Assembly (NCBI GenBank): GCA_021399445.1
Contig: JAJTUQ010000003.1
Location: 5,642,001-5,706,000, forward strand
DNA length: 64,000 nucleotides
Direction: 5' to 3'
From: Xylogone sp. PMI_703
Lineage: Eukaryota; Ascomycota; Leotiomycetes
Made by a program: the position numbers and the translations under genes. Shown in pieces: positions 47,528-47,746 of this stretch (position 1 is its first letter; every line of letters starts with the position of its first letter). The notes below the pieces were generated by a model. It saw nothing but the letters and a program-made list of their open reading frames with translations, ran no database searches and was not told the DNA's origin.

Positions 47528-47538
47528 AGTTTCGAACC
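47528..47538 (-). promoter_or_regulatory. Extragenic B-box match downstream of the tRNA terminator
   Basis: GGTTCGAAACT on the minus strand fits the TFIIIC B-box core GWTCRANNC. It lies just past the T9 run and about 200 bp from the A box, an arrangement like that of yeast U6 (SNR6). Whether it is used is inference. Confidence 0.4.
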
Positions 47539-47539
47539 C

Positions 47540-47548
47540 AAAAAAAAA
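47540..47548 (-). terminator. Pol III-type T9 terminator
   Basis: Nine consecutive T on the minus strand, starting 9 nt after the discriminator base of the tRNA. Confidence 0.65.
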
Positions 47549-47572
47549 TATGTTCATGGTCACTACGAGGGT

Positions 47573-47623
47573 CTGCTTCGATGTTAGAAGAGGAATAAGT
47601 GCAACATGAGCGTTGTAACATAC
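47573..47623 (-). other. Spliceosome-type intron B inside tRNA-Ile
   Basis: 51 bp inside the T loop (TTCG / ACC). Donor GTATGT, branch TTCTAACA, acceptor AGCAG. It interrupts the B box. No similarity to intron A beyond the splice signals. Confidence 0.75.
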
Positions 47624-47666
47624 CGAACTCGCGACCTTGGCGTAATCGTTTAGGATATTAGCACCA

Positions 47667-47719
47667 CTGATTGACAAGTTAGTATGTTTATTTGTGGGCT
47701 TCCTATAGGCAAGTCTTAC
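47667..47719 (-). other. Spliceosome-type intron A inside tRNA-Ile
   Basis: 53 bp between tRNA positions 26 and 27. Donor GTAAGA, branch TACTAAC 17 nt from the end, acceptor ATCAG. Size and signals match the protein-gene introns in this window. It is not at the 37/38 site used by tRNA splicing endonuclease. Confidence 0.75.
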
Positions 47720-47746
47720 CGCTCTAACCAACTGAGCTAAGCGACC

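Follow-up and report, generated by a model that had tools for sequence, protein, structure and literature searches.

A tRNA-Ile(AAU) gene of Xylogone sp. PMI_703 carries two spliceosomal-type introns and belongs to a genome-wide class of similarly interrupted tRNA genes

The window analyzed here, a 64-kb stretch of the Xylogone sp. PMI_703 genome (contig JAJTUQ010000003.1), contains on its minus strand a tRNA-Ile(AAU) gene, designated L001, that is interrupted at three places. Elsewhere in the window, a 693-aa reading frame at 42253-44334 matches a protein of this leotiomycete with 100% identity across 98% of the frame. The parts of the gene and its downstream flank are listed below, with coordinates counted from the first nucleotide of the window.

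47557..47746, minus strand: tRNA-Ile(AAU) gene L001, running from G1 (47746) to the discriminator A (47557)
47720..47746, minus strand: exon 1, 27 nt, tRNA positions 1–26 (5′ strand of the acceptor stem and D arm), identical in the paralogs L002, L004 and L044
47728-47739, minus strand: A box TAGCTCAGTTGG, inside exon 1
47667..47719, minus strand: intron A, spliceosomal-type, 53 nt, at 26/27, GTAAGA ... CTAAC ... CAG; L044 is intron-free at this site
47656..47666, minus strand: exon 2, 11 nt, positions 27–37, including the anticodon AAU
47644..47655, minus strand: canonical tRNA intron of the endonuclease type, 12 nt, at 37/38; 37/38 introns are also present in L002–L004 and L044
47624..47643, minus strand: exon 3, 20 nt, positions 38–57 (3′ strand of the anticodon stem, variable loop, 5′ strand of the T stem and T54–G57)
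47573..47623, minus strand: intron B, spliceosomal-type, 51 nt, in the T loop at 57/58, GTATGT ... CTAAC ... CAG; L002, L003 and L044 are intron-free at this site
47557..47572, minus strand: exon 4, 16 nt, positions 58–73 (remainder of the T arm, 3′ strand of the acceptor stem and discriminator A)
47540..47548, minus strand: nine-T run, a Pol III-type terminator, 8 nt past the gene end
47529..47537, minus strand: B-box-like motif GTTCGAAAC just beyond the terminator, recognized post hoc

Removal of the 53-nt, 12-nt and 51-nt introns left a 74-mer that ARAGORN called as tRNA-Ile(aat), thereby confirming to the base an earlier sequence-only reading, according to which a cloverleaf remains after excision of two GT..CAG insertions and a 12-nt intron. 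The lengths, GT donors, branch motifs and CAG acceptors that it had described were also found, both insertions having the form GT..CTAAC..CAG, with the CTAAC placed 12 nt (intron A) and 11 nt (intron B) from the intron end. The same reading had proposed a comparison of the spliced and unspliced forms. The unspliced gene received no ARAGORN call and no Rfam match even at E values up to 10; in the whole 64-kb window ARAGORN found no tRNA and Rfam nothing at the gathering score. In an energy-only fold of the spliced 74-mer, the acceptor, D and anticodon stems formed and the T stem was shifted, and the fold of the unspliced precursor had a z score of −1.27.

Four other tRNA-Ile(AAU) genes were counted in the genome, as the sequence-only reading had suggested should be done. 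Three of them (L002, L003 and L004) were identified by DNA similarity, and each has the 26/27 intron; it is the only spliceosomal-type intron of L002 and L003, and is accompanied in L004 by an intron in the T loop. The fifth member of the family, L044, came from the Rfam tRNA search, and its sole intron is the canonical one at 37/38. Both junctions thus occur filled and empty within one gene family, which argues against misassembly and against chance.

The assembly (50.1 Mb in 25 contigs) was then surveyed for further tRNA genes by two main routes. A genome-wide Rfam tRNA search, in which 63 of 1,824 first-look candidates were scored, gave 57 matches, 55 of them above the cut-off, among which many isoacceptors were absent; 50 of the matches (L005–L054) were read, L073 was read later, and six were left out. 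The second search used a pattern that combined a T arm with a downstream T-run, and 40 places picked by eye from the resulting lists (L056–L095) were read. By eye, 18 of these loci had GT-AG introns, 14 did not, three were Arg-like without an AG, two (L094 and L095) were Glu-like, and three (L080, L090 and L091) showed no tRNA. When the four interrupted Ile genes and L101 were included, and the poorly parsed L047 was counted as lacking an intron, at least 22 of the 87 tRNA genes read were found to carry GT-AG introns, 27 in number. The interrupted gene of the sequence-only reading is therefore one of a class that extends genome-wide, which goes beyond what that reading had claimed.

The interrupted genes encode tRNAs for Ile (4 genes), Phe (3), Pro(AGG) (3), Pro(UGG) (1), Arg(ACG) (1), Leu(UAA) (2), Leu(AAG) (4), Leu(CAA) (3) and elongator Met (1). 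Five of them (L001, L004, L069, L077 and L086) contain two GT-AG introns apiece, and a canonical 37/38 intron is additionally present in 19 of the 22. By hand numbering, the 27 introns occupy 11 positions (14/15, 16/17, 18/19, 19/20, 21/22, 26/27, 30/31, 31/32, 32/33, the variable arm and 57/58), which span the D loop and its edge, the D/anticodon junction, the anticodon stem and loop, the variable arm and the T loop. A pattern search for further T-loop introns gave five matches, namely two Ile genes and three others, against 13 in the reversed control.

Several loci of the survey were ambiguous. The three Arg(ACG)-like loci (L061, L062 and L083) have TG or CG where an AG acceptor is expected and are probably decayed copies; the donor and branch motif are still present in L061 and L062. 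In L094 and L095, the anticodon stem or the 5′ half fails to close, and these are either further interrupted genes or pseudogenes. L056 (G000:C1:1340831-1341311) has no intron; this 74-nt tRNA, whose anticodon is CAU, is unusual in sequence and has a weak T stem. No tRNA gene for Asp, Gly(GCC), Trp, Val(AAC), Ser(GCU) or Arg(UCU) was recognized among the places read; these genes may contain further introns, may lack a T-run or may lie outside those places. A search with Asp, Gly and Glu anticodon arms gave 11 matches (eight in the reversed control), and the six that were read included no tRNA.

The exons were read off the cloverleaf by eye, and the script that delimited the introns accepted only those with GT and AG at their ends; these ends are therefore not independent evidence, except at 11 introns for which a paralog lacks the intron. 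The junctions of these 11 were fixed by comparison with Ile L044, L002 and L003, Phe L082, Met L019 and L043, and Pro(UGG) L101, and each allows one to three equivalent placements, one of which is GT-AG. For the other 16, the junction was fixed by the cloverleaf alone, with one to six placements. The features that the script did not impose are G at +5, the branch motif and length. All 27 introns have G at +5, versus 21% of 1,524 control GT..AG stretches, and 26 have YTAAY 8–18 nt before the end, versus 3.8% of the controls; both features together occurred in 1.0% of the control stretches. When intron interiors were shuffled, YTAAY was found in a mean of 3.1 and a maximum of 11 of the 27. Lengths fall between 49 and 64 nt, with a median of 54 nt. 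A chance origin of the insertions was rejected on the basis of the paralogs and these signal statistics.

The sequence-only reading had also held that the insertions resemble the mRNA introns around them. For comparison, we used 17 introns that were predicted to join ORFs of the window, taken from 48 candidates and picked partly on splice signals. Their length (48–77 nt) and donors (G at +5 in 15 of 17) bore out the resemblance, which did not extend to the strict branch motif: at the right distance, YTAAY was present in only 9 of the 17 and the looser YTRAY in 15, so that the branch signals of the tRNA introns are, if anything, stronger. Taken together, the sequence strongly supports the assignment of these insertions as spliceosomal-type introns, whose splicing we infer.

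Two other origins for the insertions were considered. The tRNA endonuclease acts on bulge-helix-bulge (BHB) motifs, and tandem and ectopic BHB introns are reported in tRNA genes of Cyanidioschyzon merolae and archaea, together with some nucleomorph tRNA introns that have no defined BHB (PMC3978253). Canonical 37/38 introns are moreover common in the Xylogone genome, and the insertions could on these grounds be extra endonuclease introns at non-canonical sites, as in C. merolae or Crenarchaeota. A strict BHB intron was rejected, since the 4-bp central helix (intron nt 2–5 with exon nt 2–5) is possible in only one of the 27 introns and none of the 27 lies at 37/38. Nor would GT..YTAAY..AG signals and a narrow range of 49–64 nt be expected of endonuclease introns, and 0 of 50 canonical tRNA introns have GT-AG ends. 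We regard an endonuclease origin of these insertions as extremely improbable. Mobile introns of the introner type were a further candidate that was rejected: a query with all 27 introns gave 24 matches, all in the 22 genes themselves, in a search shallow enough to miss L061 and L062, whose introns are related. When the exon–intron junction was scanned against viral and bacterial collections, 8 viral stretches and at least 120 stretches of the bacterial collection matched, with no fungal title among the matches listed; those listed for the bacterial collection (80 loci) were mostly from Paenibacillus. These matches are presumably ordinary bacterial tRNA.

We next considered whether the interrupted genes encode functional products. 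ARAGORN assigned the expected anticodon to all 22 spliced sequences. The spliced products of all three Pro(AGG) genes, all four Leu(AAG) genes and three of the four Ile genes are 100% identical within each group. Introns at the same site are 58–77% alike, versus a mean of 62% and a maximum of 75% for unrelated introns aligned likewise, and the flanks of paralogous interrupted genes have diverged as well. The divergence of same-site introns is almost to background and is incomplete, three pairs (L002/L003, L058/L059 and L069/L077) being still related with z scores above 4.5. Identical spliced products combined with diverged introns and flanks suggest that selection sees the spliced RNA.

These data bear on the alternative that uninterrupted copies supply the tRNAs, the interrupted ones being silent copies or pseudogenes. 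A joint query of nine spliced sequences against the genome found uninterrupted copies for Ile (L044), Phe (L082), Met (L019 and L043) and Pro(UGG) (L101), which is in keeping with that alternative, as is the decayed appearance of some Arg copies. The same search, which was not exhaustive, found no uninterrupted copy for five isoacceptors, Pro(AGG), Leu(AAG), Leu(CAA), Leu(UAA) and Arg(ACG), and this, together with the selection on spliced products suggested by the identical paralogs, makes it very unlikely that the genes are dispensable relics. Seven of the 22 interrupted genes (L001, L003, L004, L069, L074, L077 and L087) went undetected in the joint search; most of these have short exons, and an uninterrupted form would be easier to find. 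Since L074 and L087, which are diverged Leu(CAA) genes, were among those missed, a diverged uninterrupted copy could escape too. A search for the Pro(AGG) anticodon arm in uninterrupted form, in which up to two mismatches were tolerated, gave four matches (five in the reversed control), of which the two exact ones were the interrupted L058 and L059 and the other two had two mismatches each. By the usual inosine reading, tRNAs with anticodons AGG and AAG decode CCU/CCC and CUU/CUC, respectively. If the survey holds, decoding of these codons would depend on removal of the introns.

The sequence-only reading had left two options: a tRNA precursor may be a substrate of the spliceosome, or introns may have landed in a tRNA gene that is now transcribed by Pol II. 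The latter, with real spliceosomal introns removed co-transcriptionally as usual, draws on the normal coupling of spliceosomal splicing to Pol II and on damage to internal promoter elements: the B box is interrupted after position 57 in L001, where the A box and the T-run are present, and likewise in L004, and the A box is broken by the intron in L086 and L078, that is, by 2 of the 10 introns in or beside the D loop. The T-loop intron, by damaging the B box, should weaken Pol III transcription. Against this, a run of at least six Ts starts 2–21 nt past every one of the 22 interrupted genes, a count that is biased for 18 of them because the T-run was part of the search pattern, and that stands free of this bias for the four Ile genes. 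Among 50 tRNA genes found without the T-run pattern, 44 have T5 within 40 nt. The genomic A box is intact for 8 of the 10 introns in or beside the D loop; in five of these eight the donor G replaces an exon G, and in three the intron follows GG. In addition, the U6 gene, which is transcribed by Pol III in other organisms, contains the same kind of intron in this genome. We therefore consider transcription of the interrupted genes by Pol II to be unlikely, and the first option, in which a tRNA precursor is the substrate of the spliceosome, is favored.

A possible substitute for the split B box lies beyond the terminator. Of 84 tRNA genes (the 87 read, with L056, L073 and L092 left out), two have the motif TTCGAAAC in the first 120 nt past the gene, and these are exactly L001 and L004, the pair with T-loop introns. 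With the wider B-box pattern GTTCGANNC, matches were found downstream of L001 and L051 and were absent after L004. This motif is a candidate extragenic B box that was noticed post hoc, and its presence in both genes could reflect shared ancestry of the flanks. In the U6 gene of budding yeast, the B box lies downstream, which the B-box-like motif of L001 recalls.

The U6 snRNA genes of Xylogone were inspected by eye. The best-scoring U6 gene (L131, G000:C20:2705914, 73 bits) is interrupted before GAAACGATACAG by a GTAGGT..CTAAC..TTAG insertion. Another U6 gene (L132, G000:C21:3523655), which at 41 bits is just under the cut-off, apparently contains three insertions that begin with GT and end with AG. 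A further U6 copy, L133, seems to be decayed. In other work, splicing of U6 is reportedly impaired in pre-mRNA splicing mutants.

These observations can be set beside known systems. The U6 gene of Schizosaccharomyces pombe is described as containing an mRNA-type intron (PMC10484740), and so shares with the tRNA genes described here an mRNA-type intron in a non-coding Pol III RNA. Unlike in fungal U6, the introns here reside in tRNAs, which serve six amino acids, and a second, unrelated type of intron is also present in 19 of the 22 precursors. The U6 intron is thought to stem from reverse splicing near catalytic nucleotides, which provides no explanation for the tRNA introns. In lichen ascomycetes, the rDNA contains spliceosomal introns, and yeast removed a 57-bp one set in its own rDNA (PMC8527467); the likeness lies in short spliceosomal introns within RNA not made by Pol II, and the difference is that the host there is a Pol I rRNA and not a tRNA. 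Introns of the spliceosomal type are thus already known from non-coding RNAs that are not made by Pol II. Introns removed by the endonuclease in yeast, C. merolae and archaea likewise lie inside tRNA genes, some at non-canonical positions (PMC3978253). Those introns are mostly BHB-dependent, whereas the introns described here are marked by sequences at the splice sites and branch point, and a strict BHB helix is lacking in all but one of the 27. A current review describes tRNA introns as removed without the spliceosome (PMC13149111). In a literature search that extended to few subscription papers and no preprints, and hence is weak evidence, spliceosomal introns in tRNA genes were not found reported. 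Action of the spliceosome on a Pol III precursor has a precedent in U6; for a tRNA precursor, none was found.

As a whole, this information makes it highly probable that L001 is a functional nuclear tRNA-Ile(AAU) gene belonging to a genome-wide class, in which U2-type spliceosomal introns are present in addition to the canonical 37/38 intron and Pol III precursors would undergo spliceosomal splicing before the tRNA endonuclease acts on them. In the model suggested by the sequence, Pol III would transcribe L001 from the A box to the T-run, and TFIIIC, speculatively, may use either the remnant of the split B box or the B-box-like motif past the terminator. The nuclear spliceosome would then remove introns A and B as lariats by means of the GT, CTAAC and CAG signals, a step that we infer from the splice signals, the intron-free paralogs and the conserved spliced product. 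The interrupted arms would fold only after splicing and, in the proposed order, end trimming, export and cleavage of the 37/38 intron by the endonuclease would follow. For some isoacceptors, this spliceosomal route may be the sole supply. We lean, with less assurance, towards the view that the spliceosome is an obligatory tRNA-maturation enzyme in this lineage, needed for decoding of Pro CCU/CCC and Leu CUU/CUC, with the Leu(AAG) tRNAs and that of one Pro(AGG) gene spliced again by the tRNA endonuclease, and with the B-box-like element past the terminator possibly taking over where the B box is split.

The mRNA splicing machine would, on this model, also have to process tRNA in this fungus. 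With about one quarter of the tRNA genes read (22 of 87) carrying spliceosomal-type introns, the spliceosome would work routinely on short, structured Pol III transcripts, and translation capacity would be tied to splicing; how Pol III genes come to acquire introns would then also have to be asked. Interrupted genes of this sort readily escape annotation or receive a wrong name, and further examples may have gone unnoticed in other fungi. When the 22 raw genes were submitted to ARAGORN with introns allowed, 10 received no call, 10 were given a wrong anticodon and 2 the right one. The genome-wide Rfam search, with its 63 scored candidates, returned none of the 22; in a direct Rfam scan of the four interrupted Ile genes, L001 and L004 were missed, and L002 and L003 were detected.
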